A stretch of 64,000 nt of DNA from Phenylobacterium sp. LH3H17 (GTDB lineage: Bacteria > Pseudomonadota > Alphaproteobacteria > Caulobacterales > Caulobacteraceae): assembly GCF_024298925.1 (NCBI RefSeq), contig NZ_CP101283.1, positions 2,547,001 to 2,611,000 of the forward strand, written 5' to 3'. A program made the position numbers and the translations under genes. The notes under the pieces are model-generated. The model was not told where the DNA came from. It made no database searches and saw only the letters and a list, made by a program, of their open reading frames with translations. Shown here piece after piece: positions 2,859 through 42,686 of the stretch. The number at the start of each line of letters is the position of its first letter. The stretch's first letter is position 1.

Positions 2859-2932
2859 GGCCTGATGGCGGAGTGGTTACGCAGCGGACTGCAAATCCGT
2901 GCACCCGAGTTCGATTCTCGGTCAGGCCTCCA
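2859..2932 (+). tRNA. tRNA-Cys (GCA)
   Basis: A 74-nt cloverleaf. The acceptor stem GGCCTGA (2859-2865) pairs with TCAGGCC (2922-2928), followed by discriminator T and an encoded CCA at 2930-2932. The anticodon loop CTGCAAA places GCA at 2891-2893, and the T-arm has GTTCGATTC. The gene lies in the gap upstream of the minus-strand pcm-like gene. Confidence 0.97.
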
Positions 2933-3046
2933 AATTTCCTCGCGACATCCCGACCCTTGCGTACTGTGAAGTGACGCCGATTGAGCGGCGTCAAAGCGCG
3001 TGCGCCGGCGACATGCTGAGAGACGGGCGCAAGCAGGAGCGCGATC

Positions 3047-3298
3047 ATGCCGAAGCCGAACACCCAATCCGTGGCCGCCCCGGCCGAAAAAACCTTCCAG
3101 GAAGGTTTTGAGATCTGGAAGGCGGGCTGCGACATCTGGCTGGCCTATCTGGCGCAGCTTCCGACCATCCGCACGCCAGCGGCCCTGATGGAGGCCAACA
3201 CCCGCCTGATGGCCCAGAGCTTGAACATCTGCGGCCTGGCCACCGGCGAGTTGCTAGTCGACGCCGGCGTGCGCGAGCCGACCCTCAGCGACGGCTAG
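3047..3298 (+). CDS. Small hypothetical protein, 83 aa
   Basis: I do not recognise a family. The product has a short polar N-terminus, then an amphipathic, tryptophan- and leucine-rich stretch (KTFQEGFEIWKAGCDIWLAY) followed by a helical TPAALMEANTRLMAQSLNIC segment. An AGGAG ribosome-binding site sits about 9 nt before the ATG, and codon use matches the genomic GC pattern, so I take it as real. The helical, membrane- or granule-surface-like character is faintly reminiscent of phasins, but that is only a guess. It converges on the cytochrome c gene with a 7-nt gap. Confidence 0.65.
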   Translation: MPKPNTQSVAAPAEKTFQEGFEIWKAGCDIWLAYLAQLPTIRTPAALMEANTRLMAQSLNICGLATGELLVDAGVREPTLSDG

Positions 3299-3305
3299 CC
3301 GCCGG

Positions 3306-3689
3306 CTAGTGAGCCTGTAGCGTCGCCTTGGGCTGTTCCCGACGGCCACTGCGCAGGGCGGTCACCTGGGTCGGATTGATGGGCTTGCCCCTATTGCCCC
3401 AGGACGCGCGCACGTAGCTGAGGATGGTCGCGATCTGCAGGTCGGTCAGCTCGGCCTGGAAGGACGGCATGCCGCCGCGCCCTTGCAGCACCCGGCCGAT
3501 GGCCTCCTTGGGGTCGCCCTGCACGGTCTTGCTGCCGGCCAGCGCCGGGAAGGCGCCGGGTATCCCCTGACCGGTCGGACGATGGCAGGCGGCGCAGTTG
3601 TCCTTGTAGAGGCTGGCGCCGTCGGCGGCGGCGGCCGATTGGGCGCAGAGGCTCGCGGCGACGACCGCAAGCACGGGTACGATACGCAT
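3306..3689 (-). CDS. Class I c-type cytochrome, exported
   Basis: A small periplasmic electron carrier. A signal peptide (MRIVPVLAVVAASLCAQSA...) precedes one heme site, CAACH, and the distal methionine is probably within GRGGMPSFQ, typical of monoheme cytochrome c domains. I chose ATG 3689 over the GTG at 3701: it has a GGGGAG ribosome-binding site and falls 8 nt after the amine oxidase stop. This pairing suggests the cytochrome accepts electrons from that flavoenzyme, as CycN does for NicA2. That partnership is inferred from position. Confidence 0.9.
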   Translation of the reverse strand: MRIVPVLAVVAASLCAQSAAAADGASLYKDNCAACHRPTGQGIPGAFPALAGSKTVQGDPKEAIGRVLQGRGGMPSFQAELTDLQIATILSYVRASWGNRGKPINPTQVTALRSGRREQPKATLQAH

Positions 3690-3697
3690 GGCTCCCC

Positions 3698-5293
3698 TCA
3701 CGCGGCGTGCACACGGGCGTGGAGCTTGGCGATCTGCTGCCAGGCGCTCTCGATCCCGCCGGCCTGCCAGCCGGTCATGTAGCTCATGTGCTCGCCGGCC
3801 AGGTAGAGCCGTCCATCGGGCTCACACAGTATGGGATAGGCGCTGGCGCGGCTCTCCTCGCTCCATTCGGCCCAACCGCCGAGGTTGTGCTCGATCAGGT
3901 GCCAGGAGGCGGAGAAGGCGCTGTCGATATTCTCGGAATAGCCGGGGAACACCCGGTCGCCGGCCCGCCCCGCCAGGGCGCGGCGCTCGGCGGGCGAAAG
4001 CGCGCTGACCTTCGCGGCCTGGGCGCCGAAATTGTAATAGCCCAGCAGCACGCCCTTGCGGCCCTGGAAGCCGGTGGACGGCAGGGTCATGCTGTTGATC
4101 TCGGGGTCGTCGAAATAGACGTGGCCGCCATAGATGTGGTGGTCCTCTTCCCAGAACCGCCGCTTCATCTGCAGGCCGATCTTGCCGACCAGGGCGTAAG
4201 ACACCTTCCCGATCGCCTCCTTGAAGGGCTTGGACACCTGCACGTCCATCTGGCGCAGCACCGAGAGCGGGATGGTGCAGATGCAGTAGTCGGCCTTGAG
4301 CGTCCCGGCCTTGCCGTCGCCGTCGACGAAGGCGACCTCCACGCCCTTGGCGTTCTGCTTCAGGCTCTTCACCTGGGTGGAATACATGATCAGCTTGCCG
4401 ATGGCGGTTTCGAAGCCCTTGGCGATCCGGTCCATGCCGCCGACCGGCTGGAACATGGTCCTCTGCTGTTCGTAGCTGCTGACCGAGGCCAGGGTGCGCC
4501 AGGCGCCGGAGTGCAGCACGTCGGTGAAGCTGTTGGGAGTGGACGGCTTGCCGGGCCCGGGATCCATCAGGGCGCCGGGCGGCAGGTCGAAGCCGCGGCC
4601 CTCCGCGCCCCTGTAGGCCAGATCCTTGGTCAGATAGCCTTCCTGGACCACATAGGCGAGGAACTGCTCGCGGTCCTCGGCGGTCATCTGCTGGTCGAGC
4701 GCCCCTTGCTTGATCGACTTGGCGAGGATCTCGGCGGCCCCGCCGCGGATGTCGGCGGCCACCTGGCCCTTGCGGATCGGCTTGCCGGCCAGCGGGCCCT
4801 TTCCACGGCCGAACATCAGGTAGGAGGCGTCGTTGTCGTTGACGAACACCTCCAGCGGAATGTTGAATTCCTTGGTGTAATGCAGGGTCGACTGGTGGTG
4901 ATAGGGGATCCGCCAGGGGCCGTGATTGATGTAGTTGCCGTCGTCGAAATCGCAGACCTGGGTCTCGCCGCCCAGTTCGGTCAGCTTGAAGCCCTTGCGC
5001 GCCGTCTGACAGCGGCCGCCGGCGAAGTCGCGGGCCTCGATGACCGTGACGTCGTAGCCCGCCTTGGAGAGTTCATAGGCCGCCGTCAGGCCGGCGACCC
5101 CGGCCCCCAGCACGGCGACCTTCTTGCCGCCGCCCCCGGACAGGGTGGGCGGCGCGGCCTGGGCCGAGGCGATCCCGAACCCCAGGGCGCTCATCCCGGC
5201 CAGCAACAGGCTGGACCCGCCAACCCCACCAAGACCTTCCAGAAAGGACCGGCGCGATACGCCCAGCCCGGCGGCCAACAATCCACGATCCAT
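3698..5293 (-). CDS. Tat-exported flavin monoamine oxidase/dehydrogenase
   Basis: An FAD-dependent amine or L-amino-acid oxidase of 531 residues. It begins with a twin-arginine signal (SRRSFLEGLGG plus a hydrophobic run to about residue 47). The dinucleotide-binding motif GAGVAGLTAAYELSKAGYD follows, with an acidic strand end at VIEARD and then GGRC. The C-terminal FAD-contact region includes YLAGEHMSYMTGWQAGG. The adjacent downstream cytochrome c suggests it passes electrons to a cytochrome rather than to oxygen. The substrate is unknown; putrescine-, tryptophan- or nicotine-like amines are all possible. It lies just downstream of the kynurenine operon, but a 138-nt gap separates them. Confidence 0.88.
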   Translation of the reverse strand: MDRGLLAAGLGVSRRSFLEGLGGVGGSSLLLAGMSALGFGIASAQAAPPTLSGGGGKKVAVLGAGVAGLTAAYELSKAGYDVTVIEARDFAGGRCQTARKGFKLTELGGETQVCDFDDGNYINHGPWRIPYHHQSTLHYTKEFNIPLEVFVNDNDASYLMFGRGKGPLAGKPIRKGQVAADIRGGAAEILAKSIKQGALDQQMTAEDREQFLAYVVQEGYLTKDLAYRGAEGRGFDLPPGALMDPGPGKPSTPNSFTDVLHSGAWRTLASVSSYEQQRTMFQPVGGMDRIAKGFETAIGKLIMYSTQVKSLKQNAKGVEVAFVDGDGKAGTLKADYCICTIPLSVLRQMDVQVSKPFKEAIGKVSYALVGKIGLQMKRRFWEEDHHIYGGHVYFDDPEINSMTLPSTGFQGRKGVLLGYYNFGAQAAKVSALSPAERRALAGRAGDRVFPGYSENIDSAFSASWHLIEHNLGGWAEWSEESRASAYPILCEPDGRLYLAGEHMSYMTGWQAGGIESAWQQIAKLHARVHAA

Positions 5294-5431
5294 AATGTCC
5301 CCAACCGCTTTGCAATGGGATGCAGGGAGCAGATGAGCACGTCAGGCGGACAATCGCTATTTCGTTAGATTGGATTCTGGGCGGTGGATTGGCGCTCCGG
5401 CGCCCAAAGGCTGGGCGGCGGCGGTCGCGGC

Positions 5432-6610
5432 TTAGGCGCGCATATAGTCCCGCGTGATCGGCAAGGCGTCGACGCGCCGGGCGAGCTGGATCTGGAAGAC
5501 CATGTGGCCGCCATAGCGGAAGCCCATCTCCGCCGAGGCCAGGTAGAACTCCCACATGCGCCGGAACCGTTCGTCATAGAGGGCGGGAATCTCCGAATCG
5601 GCCAGGAACCGCAGCCGCCAGTTCTTCAGGGTCTCGGCATAGTGCAGGCGCAGGATCTCGATGTCGGTGATCCAGAGGCCCGCGTCCTCGACCGCCGAGA
5701 CGATCTCCGACAGGCCCGGGATGTATCCGCCGGGGAAGATGTACTTGTGGGTGAAGGCGTTGGTCAGGCCCGGTCCCCCTGCCCGGCCGATGGCGTGGAT
5801 CACCGCCGTCCCGTCGTCGGCCAGCAGGCGTTTGACGGTCTCGAAATACTCGCGGAAATGCGGCTCGCCGACGTGCTCCAGCATCCCCACCGAGACGATG
5901 CGGTCGAAGGGGCGATCGAGGTCGCGATAGTCCTTCAGCTCGAAGGCGACCTTGTCGGCGAGGCCGGCCTCCTGGGCCCGGCTCCGGGCCAGTTCGAGCT
6001 GCTCGACCGATAGGGTGACCCCGGTGACCTGGGCGCCGTGGTCGCGGGCGAGGGTCATGCCCATGCCGCCCCAGCCCGAACCGATGTCGAGCACGCTCAT
6101 GCCCGGCGCGATCCGCAGCTTGGCGGCGATGTGCGCCTTCTTGGCCGCCTGGGCCTCTTCCAGCGTCATGTCCGGGCGGGCGAAATAGGCGCAGGAATAC
6201 TGCATGTCCGTGTCGAGGAAGCGCCGGTAGAGGTCGTTGGACAGATCGTAGTGGTGGGCGACATTGCGGCGCGCGGCCGTGCGGTCATTGGCCTGCTGGA
6301 TCTTGCGCTTGATCGCCCGCCGCATGCGCTTGAGCCACGAGCCGCGGCCCTTGAGGCCCCGGCTGCCGCCCCTGCCGACGATTTCCAGCAGATCCCACAG
6401 GGTCCCCTGCTCGATGACCAGGTCGCCGTCCATATAGGCCTCGGCCAGGCCGAGGCTGGGATTGGCCACCGTCCGCCGCACGCCCTTGCCGGTGAAGCGG
6501 ATCACCACCGGCGTTCCGGTCCCGTCCCCGGCCCGCTTCGAGACGCCACCGGGCAAATGGACGGTGAGGTCGCCGACCTTGATCATGCGGCTGAGCAGAG
6601 CGTCGATCAT
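5432..6610 (-). CDS. cfa: Cyclopropane-fatty-acyl-phospholipid synthase
   Basis: A SAM-dependent enzyme that adds a methylene bridge to unsaturated acyl chains of membrane phospholipids. The 392-aa product has a short N-terminal lipid-binding region, then NVAHHYDLSNDLYRRFLD, YSCAYF, the SAM motif VLDIGSGWGGMGM and the later SVGMLEHVGE, all family hallmarks. The open frame extends far upstream into the tryptophan dioxygenase gene. ATG 6610, 2 nt after that gene's stop, gives the canonical length, so I chose it. It is the last gene of the APH-DUF6285-kynU-kynA operon; why a membrane-lipid enzyme sits there is unclear. Confidence 0.93.
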   Translation of the reverse strand: MIDALLSRMIKVGDLTVHLPGGVSKRAGDGTGTPVVIRFTGKGVRRTVANPSLGLAEAYMDGDLVIEQGTLWDLLEIVGRGGSRGLKGRGSWLKRMRRAIKRKIQQANDRTAARRNVAHHYDLSNDLYRRFLDTDMQYSCAYFARPDMTLEEAQAAKKAHIAAKLRIAPGMSVLDIGSGWGGMGMTLARDHGAQVTGVTLSVEQLELARSRAQEAGLADKVAFELKDYRDLDRPFDRIVSVGMLEHVGEPHFREYFETVKRLLADDGTAVIHAIGRAGGPGLTNAFTHKYIFPGGYIPGLSEIVSAVEDAGLWITDIEILRLHYAETLKNWRLRFLADSEIPALYDERFRRMWEFYLASAEMGFRYGGHMVFQIQLARRVDALPITRDYMRA

Positions 6611-6612
6611 GC

Positions 6613-7419
6613 TCAGAGCGCCGTCCGCACCTTGAACAGTTCCGGGAAGAACGAGCCCTCCAGGGCCTTGGCCAGATAGGCCGCGCCGGCGCTGCCGCCG
6701 GTGCCCTGCTTGAAGCCGATGATGCGCTCCACGGTCTTCAGGTGGGCGAAGCGCCATTGCTGGAAGCGGAACTCCAGGTCGACCAGCTTCTCGGCCAGTT
6801 CGTAGAGGTCCCAGTAGCGCTCGGGGTCGCGATAGACGGCGATCCAGGCGGCCTCGACGGCCGGATGCTCGGCGTGGGGTTCGCGCAGGTCGCGCTCCAA
6901 GAGGTCGGCGGGCAGGTCGAAGCCGCGCCGCGCCAGGAGGTGGACGCACTCGTCATAGAGGCTGGGCGCGGCCAGGGCCTCGGCCAGCAGGGAGTGAACC
7001 TGCGTCCCCTCGTGGACGCGGAGCATGGCGGCGTCCTTGGCCCCCATCAGGAATTCCAGCATCCGGTACTGGAAGGACTGGAAGCCCGAGCTCTGGCCGA
7101 GGTGCGGGCGCAGGGCGTGGTAGTCGCTGGGGGTCATGGTGCCCAGCACGTCCCAGGACTGGATGAGCTGGCCCTGGATGCGGCTGACCCGGGCGATCAT
7201 CTTGAAGGCCGGGCCCAGGTCGTCGTCGCGGATGTGCTGGCGCGCGGCCGACAGCTCGTGGATCGAGAGCTTCAGCCACAGCTCCGAAGCCTGGTGGATG
7301 ATGATGAACAGCAGTTCGTCGTGCTCGTTCGAGCGCGGGCGCTGGGCCGACAACAGGGTGTCGAGGCCCAGATAGTCGCCGTAGCTCATCGGCGGCGGGA
7401 TGTGGAGTTTGTCGCTCAT
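6613..7419 (-). CDS. kynA: Tryptophan 2,3-dioxygenase
   Basis: A heme enzyme opening the indole ring of L-tryptophan to N-formylkynurenine, the first step of the kynurenine route. The 268 residues include [15 protein letters not shown], the dioxygenase helix [18 protein letters not shown] and the C-terminal [19 protein letters not shown] that holds the axial-histidine region. Length matches bacterial TDO. Its ATG overlaps the kynureninase stop (ATGA, 4 nt), and cfa starts 2 nt after its own stop, so the three are translationally linked. No kynurenine formamidase gene is visible in the window. Confidence 0.97.
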
Positions 7420-8645
7420 GTCACCGCCGCGATCTCATGGAACCGCGCCTCGCGCCACTGCCCTTTTTGCATGATGTCGGCCAGGACCTCCACGGCGTCC
7501 CAGACGTCGGCGTAACCGACATAGAGCGGGGTGAAGCCGAACCGCAGGACGTCGGGGGCGCGGAAGTCGCCGATGACCCCGCGGTCGATCAGGGCCTGCA
7601 TGATCGGATAGCCGTGCGGATGGGTGAGCGCCACCTGGCTGCCGCGCTGCGTCGCGTCGCGGGAGCAGCCCAGGCCGAACTCCGAGCAGCGGGCGAGCGC
7701 CAGGTCGAGGAAGAGGTCGCCCAGGGCCATGGACTTGGCGCGGATGTCGGCCATGTCGACCCCGTCGAACACGCTCAGAGCCGCCTCCAGCGCCGTCAGG
7801 GCCAGGACCGAGGGCGTGCCGCAGAGGCCGCGCAGGACGCCCTTGGCCGGGGCGTAGTCGTCGCCGAAGGCGAAGGGCGCCGCGTGGCCCATCCAGCCGG
7901 TCAGCGGCGACTGGAAGCCGTCCTGCAAGGCCTTGGCGACGAACAGGAAGGCCGGGGCCCCGGGGCCGCCGTTGAGGTACTTGTAGCCGCAGCCGACGGC
8001 CAGATCCGCCCCGCAGCCGTTGAGGTCGACGGCCAGGGCGCCGGCTGAGTGGCTGAGGTCCCAGAGTGCGAGCGCGCCGGCCGCATGAGCCTGGGCGGTC
8101 AGCCGGGCCATGTCGTGGACCCGGCCGGTCTTGTAGTGGACGTGGGTCAGCAGAAGCAGGGCAACGTCTTCGGTGAGCGCGGCTTGCAGGCCGGCCGGCT
8201 CGACCGCCCGCAGCTCCACATCGCCCATGAGGTCGCGCAGGCCCTGCAGGATGTAGAGGTCGGTGGGGAAGTTGCCGGGCTCGGTGACGATGACCTTGCG
8301 GCCCGGCCGGAGCTTCAGCGCCGCGGCGGCCAGCTTGAAAATGTTCACCGAGGTGGAGTCGGCGGCGATCACCTCGTCGGGCGCGGCCCCGATCAGCGGG
8401 GCGATCCTGGCCCCTACCCGCGTCGGCAGGTTGATCCAGTCGGCGGTGTTCCAGCTCTTGATCAGATCCCTGCCCCACTCGGCCTGGACGGCGGCGTCCA
8501 GGCGCGGCTTCACGGCGCGCGGCAGGGCGCCCAGGGAATTGCCGTCGAGATAGATCTGGCCCGGTGTCAGGTCGAACAGGGCGCGGCGCCCTGCCAGCGG
8601 ATCGGCGCGGTCCAGGGCCACGCAGTCGGCGCGGCTTAGGGTCAT
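7416..8645 (-). CDS. kynU: Kynureninase
   Basis: A PLP enzyme cleaving kynurenine to anthranilate and alanine. The 409-residue protein is a fold-type I aminotransferase-like enzyme: [12 protein letters not shown] near residue 35, [11 protein letters not shown] around 200, and the PLP-lysine motif [14 protein letters not shown] around 225. It overlaps its neighbours by 4 nt at both ends (ATGA with DUF6285 upstream and with kynA downstream). With TDO it covers tryptophan to anthranilate except for the formamidase step. Confidence 0.97.
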
Positions 8646-9001
8646 CGGGAGGGTTCGGGGGCGTAGTTCGGCTGGTCGATGGCGATCTGCTCGACGATGT
8701 TGGCCTTGAGCGCCGCCAGCAGGCCAGGCGTGTCGCGGTCCATCTCGCCGTCGCGCAGCTTGGCGCAGAGCTCGGCGTTCAGCTCGGACAGCGAGCCCCC
8801 GTGGCCCAGCAGGCCGGCCAGGCGCGCCGTGGCGGCGGCCTCGGCCTGCGGCCCCAGGGTCAGCTCGCGCTTGACCACGCTCAGCACATTGGCCGCCACC
8901 CGGGCCAGGAAGGCGTCGCGGGGCGGCAGGCCCGGTCGCACGGAGTCGATCCAGCGGGCCACCGCCTCCACCAGCTCGTCGGCGCGGGGGTTCTCGATCA
9001 C
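8642..9001 (-). CDS. DUF6285 protein, LvaB-like small partner of an APH-family kinase
   Basis: The 119-aa product reads from GTG 9001 (VIENPRADELVEAVARW...). Conserved-looking blocks are FLARVAANVLSVVKRELTLG, then SELNAELCAKLRDGEMD and a C-terminal IDQPNY. I recognise this as the DUF6285 type, which is usually encoded next to APH-family phosphotransferases and acyl-CoA dehydrogenases. In Pseudomonas putida the comparable small protein LvaB works with kinase LvaA on 4-hydroxyacyl-CoA; equating the two families is my inference. The GTG start overlaps the kinase stop (GTGA), and the stop overlaps the kynU start. Confidence 0.8.
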   Translation of the reverse strand: MIENPRADELVEAVARWIDSVRPGLPPRDAFLARVAANVLSVVKRELTLGPQAEAAATARLAGLLGHGGSLSELNAELCAKLRDGEMDRDTPGLLAALKANIVEQIAIDQPNYAPEPSR

Positions 9002-9990
9002 AGGCCGTTCTCCATCAGGATGACGAGGTCGATCTCGGTTTCCGAAACCCGGCGCCCGATCATCGGCCGTTCGACCGAGGACTCGGCGCCGGTGGCGTAG
9101 CTCGCATACATCATCAGGCACATCACCCCCCATTTCAGGGAGCCCAGCGCCTGCCACTGGAGCACGCGCGAGAGCGGGACCTCTGCCCCCCCGCCCGCCG
9201 CGTAGCCGTCCAGCAGGTCGGCATAGTGGCCGAAGCCGCCGACCGGCAGCTCTGCCTTCCCGAACCGCCAGGAATTGACGCAGATCCAGGACAGGTCCTC
9301 GGCCGGATCGCCGTAGTGGGAGAGTTCCCAGTCCAGCACGGCGGCGACGCCCTTGTCCGGATCGATGATAAGGTTCCCGTTCCTGAAGTCGCCGTGCAGC
9401 AGCACCGGCTCGACCGGCGGCGGGGCGTGTTTCTTCAGGTGCTGGAACGCCAGTTCCAGGATCGGCCGCTCGGCGCCCGACTGGCGGTAGACCGCCTCGT
9501 AGCGCTCCAGTTCGCCCAGGAAGTCGACGGTCTTCAGCGGCAGGTCGGCCTTGGCCGAATGGATCTGGGCCAGGATGCCGCCGCACTGGCGCGCCAGGCT
9601 GGGGCGCACGGCGTCGAACCGGGGGTCCATGACGATCTTGCGGCCCAGGGTCTCGCCGGCGATGCGGCGCGTGATGTGGGCCTCGCCCAGGCCGTCGTCG
9701 GGGCCTGCCAGGTGGACCAGGGGCGCCACCGGGGCGCCCGTCCCATGGGCCGCCACGATCAGGGCGGCCTCGGTGGCCAGCGAGACCGAGCGCGAGGCGT
9801 CCTCGTCGATGGGACCGCCCGGCCGGCGGCGCAGGATCATCTCCTGGCGGCCCCCCGGTCCGGCTACCGCGAAGGCCCAGGTTTCCATGCTGGCGCCCCC
9901 TGAAAGGCGCTGCAGGTCCTCGATATTTCCGCCGCCCTCCGCGAGGCGGGGGGCCAGCCGCGAAAGGCTTGAAAAAATGGTGTCTTCCAT
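8998..9990 (-). CDS. APH-family phosphotransferase, LvaA/ACAD10-11 kinase-domain type
   Basis: An aminoglycoside-phosphotransferase-fold kinase that in this subfamily phosphorylates hydroxyacyl-CoAs rather than drugs. The visible core is the nucleotide loop LSGGASMETWAF, then EMILRRRPGG with the ATP-contact region. The catalytic LLHGDFRNGNLIID (Brenner HxDxxxxN) and AVLDWELSHYGDPAEDLSWIC with the metal Asp come next. I chose ATG 9990 because the longer upstream frame lacks family sequence and runs into the divergent promoter region. It is divergent from an acyl-CoA dehydrogenase 104 nt away, the domain pair fused in animal ACAD10/11. Confidence 0.88.
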   Translation of the reverse strand: MEDTIFSSLSRLAPRLAEGGGNIEDLQRLSGGASMETWAFAVAGPGGRQEMILRRRPGGPIDEDASRSVSLATEAALIVAAHGTGAPVAPLVHLAGPDDGLGEAHITRRIAGETLGRKIVMDPRFDAVRPSLARQCGGILAQIHSAKADLPLKTVDFLGELERYEAVYRQSGAERPILELAFQHLKKHAPPPVEPVLLHGDFRNGNLIIDPDKGVAAVLDWELSHYGDPAEDLSWICVNSWRFGKAELPVGGFGHYADLLDGYAAGGGAEVPLSRVLQWQALGSLKWGVMCLMMYASYATGAESSVERPMIGRRVSETEIDLVILMENGL

Positions 9991-10094
9991 GACGCCGGGG
10001 AACCTTTGTCGTGATCTAATCCAACGATCTGCAGCGTTCGGCGCCGGCTTGTAAACGGCCAAAAAGACGTCGGCCCGTATCGGAGGAAACACCC

Positions 10095-11432
10095 ATGGAT
10101 TTCAGCATCAGCCCGGAACTCGAAGCTTACCTGGGGGAACTGGACGCCTTCATCGAGGCCAAGATCAAGCCGCTGGAGCAGAAGGACGACAACATCCGCT
10201 ACTTCGACCATCGGCGCGAATACGAGCGCACCGATTGGGACGCCGGCGGCCTGCCGAAGAAGGAATGGGAAGAGCTGCTGGGCCAGGCCCGCAAGCTCGC
10301 CGACGAGGCCGGCCACCTACGCTATGCCTGGCCCACCGAGATGGGTGGCAAGGGCGGCTCGAACCTCGACATGGCGGTGATCCGCGAGCACCTGGCCGCC
10401 AAGGGGCTGGGCCTGCACAACGACCTGCAGAACGAGCACTCGATCGTCGGCAACAACCCCTTCATCCTGATGTTCAAGGAGTTCGCCACCAACGCCCAGT
10501 ACGACCGCGACGGCGCCAAGCTGCTGGCCGGCCAGATGCGCACGGGCTTCGGGCTGACCGAACCCAACCACGGCTCGGACGCGACGTTCATGGAGACCAC
10601 CGCGGTCCGCCAGGACAAGGACGGCAAGCCCGGCTGGCTGATCCGCGGCGAAAAGATGTGGACGACCGGCATGCACGTGGCGACCCACGTCATGGTCTTC
10701 GCCCGCACCAGCGGCAAGGACGGCGACGCCGCGGGGATCACCTGCTTCATCGTGCCCGCCGACACCCCCGGCGTGAAGGTCGAGGAGTATCTCTGGACCT
10801 TCAACATGCCCACCGACCACCCGCGGGTCAGCTTCACCGACGTCTGGATTCCCGAGGACAGCTACTGGGGCCAGATCGACCGCGGGCTGGGACTGGGGCA
10901 GAGCTTCGTGCACCAGAACCGCATCCGCCAGGCCGCCTCATCCCTGGGCGCGGCGGTCTTCTGCGTCGAGGAGAGCGTGAAGTACGCCCGGGCCCGCAAG
11001 CCGTTCGGCAAGCCGCTGTCCGACAACCAGGGCATCCAGTTCCCGCTCGTGGAGTTGGCGACCCAGTGCGAGATGCTGCGCCTGCTGATCCGCAAGACCG
11101 CCTGGGACATGGACCGGATGGAGCACAAGGAGATCGAGCGGACGATCTCCGACAAGGTCTCCATGTGTAACTACTGGGCCAACCGCCTGGTCTGCGAGGC
11201 CGCCGACCGGGCCATGCAGGTGCACGGGGGCATCGGCTATTCTCGCCACAAGCCCTTCGAGCACATCTACCGCCACCACCGCCGCTACCGGATCACCGAG
11301 GGCTCGGAGGAGATCCAGATGCGCAAGGTCGCCGCCTTCCTGTTCGGCTATCTCGGTCCCAAGCGGGCGCAGTTCAAAGAGGCGGAGGCCGCCGCCGGCG
11401 AGTACGTGCAACCCATCCCGGCCCGCCACTAA
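10095..11432 (+). CDS. Acyl-CoA dehydrogenase, LvaC/ACAD11-like
   Basis: An FAD enzyme of 445 residues with the long N-terminal helix region seen in the ACAD10/11 group. Typical blocks are TGFGLTEPNHGSDATFMET (FAD and substrate loop), IRGEKMWTTGMHVATHVMVF, RIRQAASSLGAAVFCVEESV and the C-terminal QVHGGIGYSRHKPFEHIYR with ITEGSEEIQMRK. A GGAGG ribosome-binding site precedes the ATG. Divergent placement from the kinase/DUF6285 pair suggests it converts 4-phosphoacyl-CoA through an enoyl intermediate in the same pathway; that role is inferred. Confidence 0.93.
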   Translation: MDFSISPELEAYLGELDAFIEAKIKPLEQKDDNIRYFDHRREYERTDWDAGGLPKKEWEELLGQARKLADEAGHLRYAWPTEMGGKGGSNLDMAVIREHLAAKGLGLHNDLQNEHSIVGNNPFILMFKEFATNAQYDRDGAKLLAGQMRTGFGLTEPNHGSDATFMETTAVRQDKDGKPGWLIRGEKMWTTGMHVATHVMVFARTSGKDGDAAGITCFIVPADTPGVKVEEYLWTFNMPTDHPRVSFTDVWIPEDSYWGQIDRGLGLGQSFVHQNRIRQAASSLGAAVFCVEESVKYARARKPFGKPLSDNQGIQFPLVELATQCEMLRLLIRKTAWDMDRMEHKEIERTISDKVSMCNYWANRLVCEAADRAMQVHGGIGYSRHKPFEHIYRHHRRYRITEGSEEIQMRKVAAFLFGYLGPKRAQFKEAEAAAGEYVQPIPARH

Positions 11433-11520
11433 CCGGCGACCACGGAGATTTTATCTCGACCTGATGTCGGGCCGGCCGCTCGCCGTTCGTCGTTCCAGCG
11501 TAATTAGCTGGATGATTTCG

Positions 11521-12417
11521 ATGATCGAACCGGTACGGCCAGGCCTGAGCCGTCGGCTGCTGCTCGCCTCGGGCGTGGCGGCGGCCGCCGGTCTTGGCGT
11601 CAGTGAAAGAGGATTTTCCATGGAGACCAAGGAACGCAACGGCGGCTACGCCGAAGTCGACGGCCTGCGCGTCTACTACGAGCGGCATGGCGCCACGAGC
11701 GGAACGCCGATTGTGCTGCTGGCCGGCGGCGCGATGGCGATCGACACCGCGCTCGCCGCCGACCTGATCCCGCGGTTCTCCAAGACCCGGCCCGTCATCG
11801 CCGTCGAGCCGCAGGGCCATGGCCATACCGGCGATCGTCAGGGTCCGATCCGACTGTCCCGGTTGGCCGATGACGTGGTGGGCGTGCTGGATCACCTCGG
11901 CGTGGCCCGGGCCCACCTGGTCGGCCACAGCCTGGGCGGAATGATCGCGACGGAGGTGGCGATCCATCATCCGGCGCGCACGGCCAGCCTCACGGCCGTC
12001 AGCGTGACCTACAATCTCGACGGCATGCAGCCGGAACTGGCCAAGCTGCAGCGGGGCGAGATCCAGGAACCAACGGCGGAGCTGGCGCCCCTGCTGCCGA
12101 CCGAGGCCGACTTCGCCGCCTGGGAAGCCAACCATCGCAAGCACAACCCCGATCCTGAGAGCTTCTTCCCGATTCTGGAGCGCCTCAACGTCATGCTCAC
12201 CACATGGGAGGGGTGGAGCCCCGCCCAACTCGGCGCGATCACGGCGCCCACCTTGCTGGCCATCGGCGACAACGACTTCACCCGGATAGAGCATGCCGCG
12301 GAGATGAAGCGACTGATCCCCGGAGCCCAGCTCGCGGTCCTGCCGGGCACGACCCACATGGATATCTTCCAGCGCGGCGCCTGGCTGGAACCGCTGATCG
12401 CCGCGCGGATCGGCTAG
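11521..12417 (+). CDS. Alpha/beta hydrolase, possibly Tat-exported
   Basis: The fold shows GTPIVLLAGGAMAID (oxyanion strand), the nucleophile elbow VGHSLGGMIA, a late acid in LLAIGDNDFTRI and the catalytic His in LPGTTHMDIF. Substrate is unknown. Start is ambiguous. ATG 11521 (or 11512/11464) gives a leader with SRRLLLASGVAAAAGLG, a Tat-like signal. ATG 11620 has a strong AAAGAGGA ribosome-binding site 5 nt away and gives a cytoplasmic enzyme beginning METKERNGG. An inverted repeat CCAGC-N7-GCTGG at 11495-11511 lies just before the earlier starts. It converges with the Mur ligase, sharing a CTAG stop. Confidence 0.85.
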   Translation: MIEPVRPGLSRRLLLASGVAAAAGLGVSERGFSMETKERNGGYAEVDGLRVYYERHGATSGTPIVLLAGGAMAIDTALAADLIPRFSKTRPVIAVEPQGHGHTGDRQGPIRLSRLADDVVGVLDHLGVARAHLVGHSLGGMIATEVAIHHPARTASLTAVSVTYNLDGMQPELAKLQRGEIQEPTAELAPLLPTEADFAAWEANHRKHNPDPESFFPILERLNVMLTTWEGWSPAQLGAITAPTLLAIGDNDFTRIEHAAEMKRLIPGAQLAVLPGTTHMDIFQRGAWLEPLIAARIG

Positions 12418-13823
12418 GCGGCGACGGCTTCGCCGTACAGCCTGTCGAACACCGGCGGCAGGCTGTCGGGCAGGCCCAGCAGCGGGCCCGACGAAAGCAG
12501 CAGGACGGCTTCGTCGCCGCGCAGGTCCGACAACGCGGCGATGACGTCGTCGGCGGTGGTCACGCCCCGGACCGCCACGCCCGCGGCGGCGGTGCGCGCG
12601 ACGATTTCCTCGTGGGTCGACTGATGATGGCTGGCCGCCCCGTGAGTGGGCGGCGGGATCATCAGCACCTGGGCCGCACCGTCGAACACCGTGTCGTACC
12701 AGCTGAGCGCATCGCGGGAGCGCCAGGAGAAGGTGTGGGGCTCGAAGACCACGATCAGCGGCCGGTCCGGATAGTGCAGCTGCATGGCCTCGATGGCCGA
12801 TCGCGCCTTCTCGTATGAGGAGCCGAAGCCCTCGATCAACGGGACTATCGAGGCCGCGGTCAGGCGGTCCAGCCGCCGGCGGATGCCGCCGAAACTCTCC
12901 AGGGCGCGGGCGAGCTGGTCGGGGCTCACCAGGCCGCGCTCCAGCAGATAGGCCGCCACGCCGACGATGTTCTCCACATTGTGGGCGCCGAGCAGCTGGG
13001 TGCGCAGGGCGATCTCGCGGCCGTCCGGGGCCACCAGGACGAAGCTGGTGGTCTCTCCGAACGTGACGTCGCGGCTGAACCAGCCGTCGCAGGGGGCGGT
13101 GTCGTACCAGACCACGCGGGCCTTGGTGTGATGGGTCACCGCGCGGATCGCGGGATGTTCCCGCAGCATGGCCAGGCCGCTCATGGGCAGGCCCTGCAGC
13201 AGCTCGAGGAAGGGCGCCTCGTAGTCCGCGAAGGTCGGGAAGACGTTGACGTGGTCGTGGATCAGCGAGGTCAGCAGCAGGTGCTGGGGATGATAGAGGG
13301 CGAACTTGGACCTGCGGTCGGCGCCGGAGACGATGTACTCGTCGCCCTCCAGCACCACCTGCCCGGCCCCCCAATGTCCGGTCTCCGGCAGGGAGGGCGA
13401 GATGGCCCCGACCATCCAGCCCGGATCGGTCCCGGCCTGGCGCAGAATGTGGGCCATGAGCGCCGTGCAGCTCGACTTGCCGAAGGAGCCGGCCACCACT
13501 GTGACCTCGCGGCCCAGGGTCGCCTCCCCCAGCATCTCGGCGAAGGTGGTGACCCGCACGCCGCGGGCGCGGGCGGCGATCACCTCGGGATTGGCCTCGG
13601 CGCCCAGCTTGGCGCTGGTCCCCAGCACCAGGACGTCCAGTTCGGCCGGGAGATTCGCCGCGTCGAATCGGCGGTGGAAGGGAAAGCCCAGGCCTTCCAC
13701 ATAGGTCGACATCGGCGGGAAGACATCCTCGTCGGAACCCGAGACCTCGTGGCCGGCGTCGCGCATCAGGAGCGCGACCGCGCTCATCCCCGCCCCGGCC
13801 ATGCCCGTGAAATGGATACGCAT
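12414..13823 (-). CDS. Mpl-like Mur ligase family protein with altered motifs
   Basis: A 469-aa protein with the three-domain Mur ligase plan, closest to Mpl, which reattaches the murein tripeptide to UDP-MurNAc. The N-terminus HFTGMAGAGMSAVALLMRD, the HEVSGSDEDVFPPMS segment and the central EGDEYIVSGADRRSKF match Mpl. Two key sites differ. The ATP loop reads AGSFGKSSCT instead of GTHGKTTT. The DxxHHP catalytic motif expected after the third-domain start is replaced by EGFGSSYEKA. It may use another substrate, or be a lineage-specific paralogue. Stop overlaps the convergent hydrolase. Confidence 0.82.
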   Translation of the reverse strand: MRIHFTGMAGAGMSAVALLMRDAGHEVSGSDEDVFPPMSTYVEGLGFPFHRRFDAANLPAELDVLVLGTSAKLGAEANPEVIAARARGVRVTTFAEMLGEATLGREVTVVAGSFGKSSCTALMAHILRQAGTDPGWMVGAISPSLPETGHWGAGQVVLEGDEYIVSGADRRSKFALYHPQHLLLTSLIHDHVNVFPTFADYEAPFLELLQGLPMSGLAMLREHPAIRAVTHHTKARVVWYDTAPCDGWFSRDVTFGETTSFVLVAPDGREIALRTQLLGAHNVENIVGVAAYLLERGLVSPDQLARALESFGGIRRRLDRLTAASIVPLIEGFGSSYEKARSAIEAMQLHYPDRPLIVVFEPHTFSWRSRDALSWYDTVFDGAAQVLMIPPPTHGAASHHQSTHEEIVARTAAAGVAVRGVTTADDVIAALSDLRGDEAVLLLSSGPLLGLPDSLPPVFDRLYGEAVAA

Positions 13824-13934
13824 TCCGTCTGCTCCCGGACCGCTCGCCGCGCCGGCCCTGACTAGCGGAGATCGCCCCGCCGCCTCAAGGCCCGCCTGCC
13901 CCGCGCGGCGTTTTGGAGCAGGCTCCGGCAGGTC

Positions 13935-13949
13935 TTAACCTTCGCTTAA
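13935..13949 (+). promoter_or_regulatory. Perfect CtrA box (TTAA-N7-TTAA)
   Basis: TTAACCTTCGCTTAA is an exact match to the Caulobacter CtrA full site, and each half continues as TTAACC, the orientation used on plus-strand promoters. It lies about 112 nt upstream of the minus-strand Mur ligase start and about 24 nt before a hairpin/terminator unit on the plus strand. Binding is inferred. Confidence 0.6.
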
Positions 13950-13964
13950 CCATGTTGGCGGAAC

Positions 13965-14040
13965 CTGACGTCGTCTTCCCCGGAAGACACCCCACCATCA
14001 CCGACTTCGTAAAGCCCGGCCTCGGCCGGGCTCTTTTTCT
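13965..14040 (+). ncRNA. Candidate small RNA ending in an intrinsic terminator
   Basis: No protein gene explains this stretch. It contains a perfect 7-bp hairpin GTCTTCC-CC-GGAAGAC (13973-13988), an unstructured linker and a strong terminator at 14013-14040. The CtrA box 24 nt upstream could drive it. The 5' end is an estimate from promoter spacing. A short read-through fragment or 5'-UTR attenuator for tRNA-Asn is possible, but the terminator then would stop the tRNA. Confidence 0.45.
14013..14040 (+). terminator. Rho-independent terminator
   Basis: A 9-bp perfect stem, AGCCCGGCC (14013-14021) and GGCCGGGCT (14024-14032), is followed by CTTTTTCT. The U-run is on the plus strand only, so it ends a plus-strand transcript, yet no plus-strand protein gene lies upstream within 1.5 kb. 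Confidence 0.8.
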
Positions 14041-14070
14041 AAGCATGCCATGCGACACGATATCCATGGC

Positions 14071-14099
14071 TTGCGCGCCCGCCCGACGCGACGTATATC
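14071..14099 (+). promoter_or_regulatory. Likely promoter of tRNA-Asn
   Basis: TTGCGC (14071-14076) and TATATC (14094-14099) are separated by exactly 17 nt. The -10 element sits 16 nt before the mature tRNA-Asn 5' end, fitting a sigma-70-type start near 14106. Confidence 0.55.
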
Positions 14100-14115
14100 G
14101 CCGCCTCCAAGGTGA

Positions 14116-14191
14116 TCCCCGATAGCTCAGCTGGTAGAGCAGTCGGCTGTTAACCGACTTGTCGCAGGTTCGAGTCCTGCTCGGGGAGCCA
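14116..14191 (+). tRNA. tRNA-Asn (GTT)
   Basis: A 76-nt cloverleaf. The acceptor stem TCCCCGA (14116-14122) pairs with TCGGGGA (14181-14187), then discriminator G and encoded CCA. The anticodon stem GTCGG/CCGAC encloses loop CTGTTAA, with GTT at 14149-14151, and the T-loop has GTTCGAGTC. Confidence 0.97.
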
Positions 14192-14610: not shown

Positions 14611-14820
14611 ATGGCTACCGGTATTGTTAAGTGGTTCAACGGAACCAAGGGCTTCGGCTTCATCCAACCCGATGACGGCGGCGCCGACGTTTTTGTGCAC
14701 ATTTCGGCCGTTGAGCGCGCCGGCATGGGCACCCTGAACGAAGGCCAACGCGTCGCCTTCGAACTGGAGCGCGATCAGCGCAGCGGCAAGATGTCGGCTG
14801 GTCAGCTGCAATCCGCCTAA
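14611..14820 (+). CDS. Cold-shock domain protein (CspA family)
   Basis: A 69-aa single OB-fold RNA chaperone. RNP1 appears as KGFGFI and RNP2 as DVFVHIS, in the normal order after the opening [14 protein letters not shown]. Length matches CspA. AAGGGGAC upstream of the ATG provides the ribosome site. It has its own strong terminator and is followed by infA, another OB-fold RNA-binding protein. Whether it is cold-induced or growth-phase controlled cannot be told. Confidence 0.97.
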
Positions 14821-14852
14821 GGCCTTTGCGGGCGTAAGCCCGCCACTGCCAG

Positions 14853-14890
14853 ACGGGCCGGCTCACGCCGGCCCGTTTTCATTTTTTCAC
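14853..14890 (+). terminator. Rho-independent terminator of cspA
   Basis: A perfect 10-bp stem, ACGGGCCGGC (14853-14862) with GCCGGCCCGT (14867-14876), loop TCAC, followed by TTTCATTTTTTC. It lies 33 nt after the cspA stop and before infA, so the two genes are probably separate units. Confidence 0.85.
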
Positions 14891-42318: not shown

Positions 42319-42430
42319 CGGACTTCCGGCACGGCCGTTCACGAAGTCTCGATCCGACGATGTAAACACTTGTTTGAACCCCAAGGCTCCGCTTAGACTG
42401 GGTCATCACCGGGCCATTCCGGTGAAACGC

Positions 42431-42593
42431 GTTCTCAGGGCGGGGTGAAAGTCCCCACCGGCGGTGATGGCGTCCCTCCCCTTGCGGGACGGGCCGCACA
42501 AGCCCGCGGGCGCCTGGCTGGCCGTGAGGCTCGTCAGGGACAGCAGATCCGGTGCGAACCCGGAGCCGACGGTTAGAGTCCGGTTATGAGAAC
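42431..42593 (+). promoter_or_regulatory. FMN riboswitch (RFN element)
   Basis: The closing stem GTTCTCA/TGAGAAC bounds the element. Inside are the conserved CAGGGCGGGGTGAAAGTCCC, ACCGGCGGTGAT, AGCCCGCGGGCGC, GACAGCAGATCCGGTG and CCGACGGTTAGAGTCCGG segments. It lies 94 nt upstream of the ribH start. High FMN should reduce expression of ribH and the downstream thioesterase gene. Confidence 0.97.
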
Positions 42594-42686
42594 CGCTGAC
42601 GGCAGGGCTCCGAGCGCATCCGCGCGACGAGTCGGTCGACGGCGTCTCCCTGAGTCGTGGTTCCAACCCCGATCAGGGAACTGACC

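Follow-up and report, generated by a model that had tools for sequence, protein, structure and literature searches.

Two small RNAs (sRNAs) of Caulobacter are among the described systems closest in kind to the element discussed here. CcnA (CCNA_R0094) is linked to CtrA, and its CCCC binds GGGG close to the start of both ctrA and gcrA (PMC8959179); ChvR (CCNA_R0100), an sRNA of 84 nucleotides (nt), has a promoter of its own that a response regulator controls (PMC6237742). Most Caulobacter non-coding RNAs are not conserved outside the Caulobacteraceae (PMC4117421). Here we consider a short intergenic unit in a stretch of 64,000 nt, referred to below as the window (G000:C1:2547001-2611000), from the 4.27 Mb genome of a Phenylobacterium (Caulobacteraceae, Caulobacterales), in which a full CtrA box precedes a hairpin, a C-rich stretch and an intrinsic terminator. 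Our analysis indicates that the unit encodes a predicted sRNA of the catalogued family CC0196, and we regard it as quite probable that the RNA, about 66 nt long, is activated by CtrA and acts by base-pairing with target messenger RNAs (mRNAs) through its C-rich strand.

The family assignment comes from an E-value scan against Rfam, in which RF01519 (CC0196, 'Caulobacter sRNA', Rfam type Gene; sRNA) matches positions 13978-14035 over model positions 1-58, its full length, with 33.0 bits and an E-value of 7.6e-6; at gathering cut-offs the Rfam scan gives no match at the sRNA locus. Because RF01519 matches here, we count the RNA as catalogued rather than new. Moreover, an unbroken alignable series, with the box and tRNA-Asn at both ends, leads from the window to a Caulobacter locus (L035) that scores 95.2 bits with RF01519, so that the two are homologous and the predicted RNA is, as far as alignment can tell, a member of CC0196. 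RF01519 matches 182 of 299 family genomes, 122 above its cut-off and 60 below, and among 14 control genomes it matches Caulobacter vibrioides only. The model begins inside the 5' hairpin and has the promoter outside it, and by starting there it probably under-scores relatives. Its cut-off leaves out the 60 matching genomes just mentioned, while a model that we rebuilt, R1, covers far more genera and gives 72.2 bits to the window copy and 71.4 bits to G212.

Upstream of the hairpin, the CtrA palindrome TTAACCTTCGCTTAA is perfect and lies exactly at 13935-13949, where the earlier note had placed it. Such TTAA-N7-TTAA palindromes occur 10 times in the whole genome, versus 2 for a reversed control pattern. 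Of 133 non-redundant loci, 84 have a perfect match upstream of the hairpin and 48 have at best 7 of 8 letters, that is, at least 7 of 8 in 132 of 133; the remaining locus breaks off where its contig ends. When the upstream sequence is shuffled, 0.9% of cases give a 7/8 match and none an 8/8 match. Since part of these loci had been fetched with DNA containing the box, we repeated the test on 40 loci that an RNA-only model had retrieved, and 39 of them again have a box of at least 7/8. The spacing is nearly fixed, the box lying 38-39 nt upstream of the hairpin in nearly all loci, and in a profile of 89 loci the half-sites occupy -38 to -35 and -27 to -24 before the hairpin's first G. Outside the box, the strongest columns of this profile before the hairpin are CC(A) after the second half-site, an A at -11 and a T at -7, the latter two being positions 2 and 6 of a -10 hexamer (Table 1).

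From the positions of the box and this -10-like hexamer we infer that transcription starts at the first base of the 5' hairpin, which puts the 5' base of the box at -38. Zhou et al. found that full CtrA motifs with their 5' base near -35 are activators in predivisional cells, the motif of ctrA P2 having its 5' base at -39 (PMC4287350). The geometry at our locus falls in the same -35 region and thus agrees with predicted activation by CtrA.

The RNA itself was analysed in two alignments, A2 with 83 distinct relatives that have a 3-nt hairpin loop and A1 with 40 diverse relatives, and both give a 5' hairpin of 6 bp, about 24 nt of open sequence and a terminator. RNAalifold recovers both helices with the C-rich stretch unpaired, and the folding energy of 13955-14042 has z = -2.5. 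In both alignments the core of the open stretch, ACCC(C)ACCATCAC, is near-invariant, the invariant single-stranded C-rich segment being ACCCCACCAUCACC. Of the cells in the two helices, 99.4% pair, and the counts of two-sided changes are not matched by any of 500 shuffles; these changes sit in the terminator, whose sequence is wholly different in Hyphomonadaceae. The 5' hairpin varies within A2 almost solely by wobble pairs, and outside A2 it shows two-sided changes of its own, GTCCC/GGGAC in L281 and L286 and GUCUC/GAGGC in L268; its loop length is variable among relatives. The conservation with covariation that the earlier note proposed to check is therefore present in both hairpins. Other details of that note need adjustment: the hairpin is where it was drawn, though with 6 bp closing a 4-nt loop in place of 7 bp and a 2-nt loop; the terminator is real and its T-run ends at 14038 rather than 14040; and the predicted length is about 66 nt instead of 70-80. 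ATG, GTG and TTG are all missing from 13973-14038, and on that ground we rejected a small protein product. Taken together, these comparisons of aligned loci say that box, hairpins and terminator are kept together far beyond chance.

How widely the unit is kept was asked of R1, which was built from A2 and from which the CtrA box was excluded. Within the order, 225 of 299 genomes and 46 of 54 genera have the RNA by R1; in the class, 20 of 385 genomes give a match. Six alphaproteobacterial families outside the order account for 14 of these 20. In these 14 copies ACACCCCACCA comes after the GTCTTC/GAAGAC hairpin, and all are preceded by a box of at least 7/8 except L272, where the contig ends before the box. 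A further class-level match (L274, 37.6 bits) was taken as chance, being without the hairpin sequence, the box and the tRNA. When the distant copies were scanned with Rfam, no cut-off was reached except by tRNA or, in L275, by a separate TPP riboswitch. Comparison thus backs the RNA unit with its two helices, the fixed geometry of box and -10 element, their wide conservation and their independence of neighbouring genes. That RNA and box have stayed linked in most of the order, and in some distant relatives too, suggests an old and important role.

Table 1. Positions of the predicted sRNA, its promoter elements and neighbouring genes in the window.
Feature	Positions	Strand	Remarks
Full CtrA box, TTAA-N7-TTAA	13935-13949	.	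-38 to -24 relative to the predicted start
-10-like hexamer, GAACCT	13961-13966	+	A at position 2 conserved in 98%, T at position 6 in 93% of 89 loci
Predicted sRNA, 66 nt, CC0196 family member (RF01519)	13973-14038	+	predicted start; end from terminator
5' hairpin, 6 bp, GTCTTC-CCCG-GAAGAC (GTCTTCCCCGGAAGAC)	13973-13988	+	from folding and alignments
Open C-rich stretch, ACCCCACCATCACCGACTTCGTAA	13989-14012	+	candidate seed; best conserved unpaired part
Intrinsic terminator, stem AGCCCGGCCTCGGCCGGGCT (14013-14032) and T-run to 14038	14013-14038	+	
tRNA-Asn(gtt)	14116-14191	+	conserved neighbour, separate transcription unit
tRNA-Cys(gca)	2859-2932	+	upstream neighbour in the ancestral order; about 11 kb away here
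Mur-ligase-family gene	12414-13823	-	lineage-specific neighbour, outside the unit

How might such a unit work? In the model that we favour, a sigma-70-type promoter with a weak -10 element would be switched on by CtrA bound at -38 to -24, and since the promoter is proposed to be activated by CtrA, the RNA would be made when active CtrA is high, that is, in predivisional cells. The transcript would run from 13973, within a base or two, to the intrinsic terminator, and its C-rich single strand would pair with target mRNAs where these are rich in G close to their ribosome-binding sites, altering the translation or stability of the mRNAs. An invariant open C-rich stretch beside a 5' hairpin, together with a freely changing terminator, is the pattern that we would read as the seed of a trans-acting sRNA. 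The start site, the activation, its timing and the base-pairing action are thus what we infer from the conserved parts, and the notion of a small RNA driven from the CtrA box is strongly supported by comparison, through the RF01519 match, the near-universal box and the -10-like element.

Several observations weigh against this model. The window copy, at 33.0 bits, stays under the 35-bit cut-off of RF01519 and so is not a member by that cut-off, and R1 at its threshold misses the RNA in a quarter of the sampled genomes of the order. Long antisense matches in the organism's own genome number 11, versus 12 for a control pattern, and one of the 11 is the sRNA gene itself; pairing with ctrA and gcrA in this genus is no better than with shuffled sequence. 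Our literature search returned no paper on CC0196, RF01519 or a CtrA-regulated sRNA, and for this organism both the RNA and the binding of CtrA are predictions from comparison.

These target searches, which gave nothing above controls, are also what one would expect of a genuine CtrA-driven RNA whose partner is a protein, with the RNA serving as decoy or scaffold instead of pairing with mRNA. The near-invariance of both the 5' hairpin sequence and the C-rich stretch would suit such an RNA as well. However, in some species compensatory changes replace the hairpin sequence, so that only its shape seems to be needed, and it is the open stretch that varies least, which fits a seed. We therefore consider protein binding an improbable account, if the best of the alternatives.

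The place of the unit suggests another role, that of a leader or attenuator of tRNA-Asn, in which the hairpin and terminator would govern how much of the transcription begun at the box continues into the tRNA gene. Indeed, of 129 scorable loci, 117 have tRNA-Asn on the same strand no more than 400 nt downstream. Yet both RNA and box are still there in loci whose tRNA-Asn is 1.2 kb off, is not found nearby or lies on the opposite strand (L008, L025, L060, L088, L164, L276, L278, L282, L285, L287), and a strong terminator stands between RNA and tRNA, all of which makes a leader very unlikely. On the other side, the divergent Mur-ligase gene, encoded on the minus strand, begins 112 nt away from the box and lies upstream in 54 loci of the genus, so that the box might serve it and the RNA-like unit be incidental; but box and hairpin keep their spacing where a glutathione-transferase-family gene, tRNA-Cys or some other gene stands upstream, and we give this idea very little credence. 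The near-invariant palindrome GTCTTC...GAAGAC at the predicted start could in principle be a DNA operator rather than an RNA hairpin, a reading that is scarcely credible given a spacer that varies from 3 nt upward, common wobble pairs that break the DNA palindrome and the substitutes GTCCC/GGGAC in L281 and L286.

Since tRNA-Cys lies upstream of the sRNA in Hyphomonadaceae and most other families, the ancestral order appears to be pcm / tRNA-Cys / sRNA / tRNA-Asn. The window retains tolC (517-1989), a pcm-like gene (2112-2681) and tRNA-Cys, but the stretch of about 11 kb that parts tRNA-Cys from the sRNA is filled with other genes and ends with the Mur ligase. In Caulobacter a glutathione-transferase-family gene lies upstream, and two tRNA-Asn, pcm, tolC, popZ and valS downstream. 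Because the upstream gene differs elsewhere in this way, the peptidoglycan-type neighbour is accidental, and the link to peptidoglycan recycling drawn in the earlier note finds no support: the gene is lineage-specific and its product is below the cut-offs of both MurC (189/335 bits) and Mpl (156/389 bits).

Some features of the window are worth recording in their own right. The interval of about 11 kb between tRNA-Cys and the sRNA/tRNA-Asn pair (2859-14115), which includes tryptophan 2,3-dioxygenase, kynureninase and the Mur ligase, looks like an insertion hot spot at tRNA genes; in Hyphomonadaceae and other families tRNA-Cys stands close to the sRNA and tRNA-Asn. The pcm-like protein between tolC and tRNA-Cys is short (189 aa), weak against isoaspartate methyltransferase models (41/188 bits) and possibly a diverged enzyme. 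A cold-shock-domain gene with its own strong terminator lies at 14611-14878, between tRNA-Asn and infA, and an FMN riboswitch (RF00050, 74 bits) at 42427-42597 on the plus strand.

More generally, three quarters of the sampled genomes of the order carry the RNA, as do members of six further families, and a CtrA site, complete or almost so, precedes it at an unchanged distance. CC0196 is therefore a strong candidate for an arm of the CtrA cell-cycle circuit that is conserved, works post-transcriptionally and has a short, defined seed. A bolder version, on which we are close to evenly divided and lean slightly against, is that CC0196 is an old core output of this circuit, predating the split of Caulobacterales from several alphaproteobacterial families and acting in trans through its invariant C-rich seed on conserved mRNAs of cell cycle or polarity.

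We take Landt et al. (2008) to be the probable source of the Rfam family, and their abstract is said to mention one new sRNA that appears to be controlled by CtrA. CC0196 may be that sRNA, in which case its link to CtrA is partly known already. The match of RF01519 is the only significant one in the Caulobacter genome and adjoins tRNA-Asn, pcm, tolC, popZ and valS, so the name CC0196 does not fit the locus, which is near popZ. The name would suggest CCNA_R0004, which sits between CCNA_00197 (rplS) and CCNA_00196 (PMC6237742, PMC8144410); the flanking genes disagree, and we did not accept this identity.

Like ChvR, the RNA of the window would be a short sRNA with its own response-regulator promoter, but ChvR is controlled by ChvI-ChvG and lies at a different locus. 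With CcnA it would share the tie to CtrA timing and a CCCC stretch of the kind that binds GGGG near start codons; however, CcnA carries its CCCC in a loop, which pairs with the 5' regions of ctrA and gcrA, and its gene is at the replication origin, whereas the window RNA has its CCCC in an open stretch and differs in both locus and structure. The closest likeness is to CC0196 in Caulobacter, which has the same C-rich core and terminator, the same box before it and tRNA-Asn after it, and whose distribution proves far wider than the Rfam name 'Caulobacter sRNA' implies.
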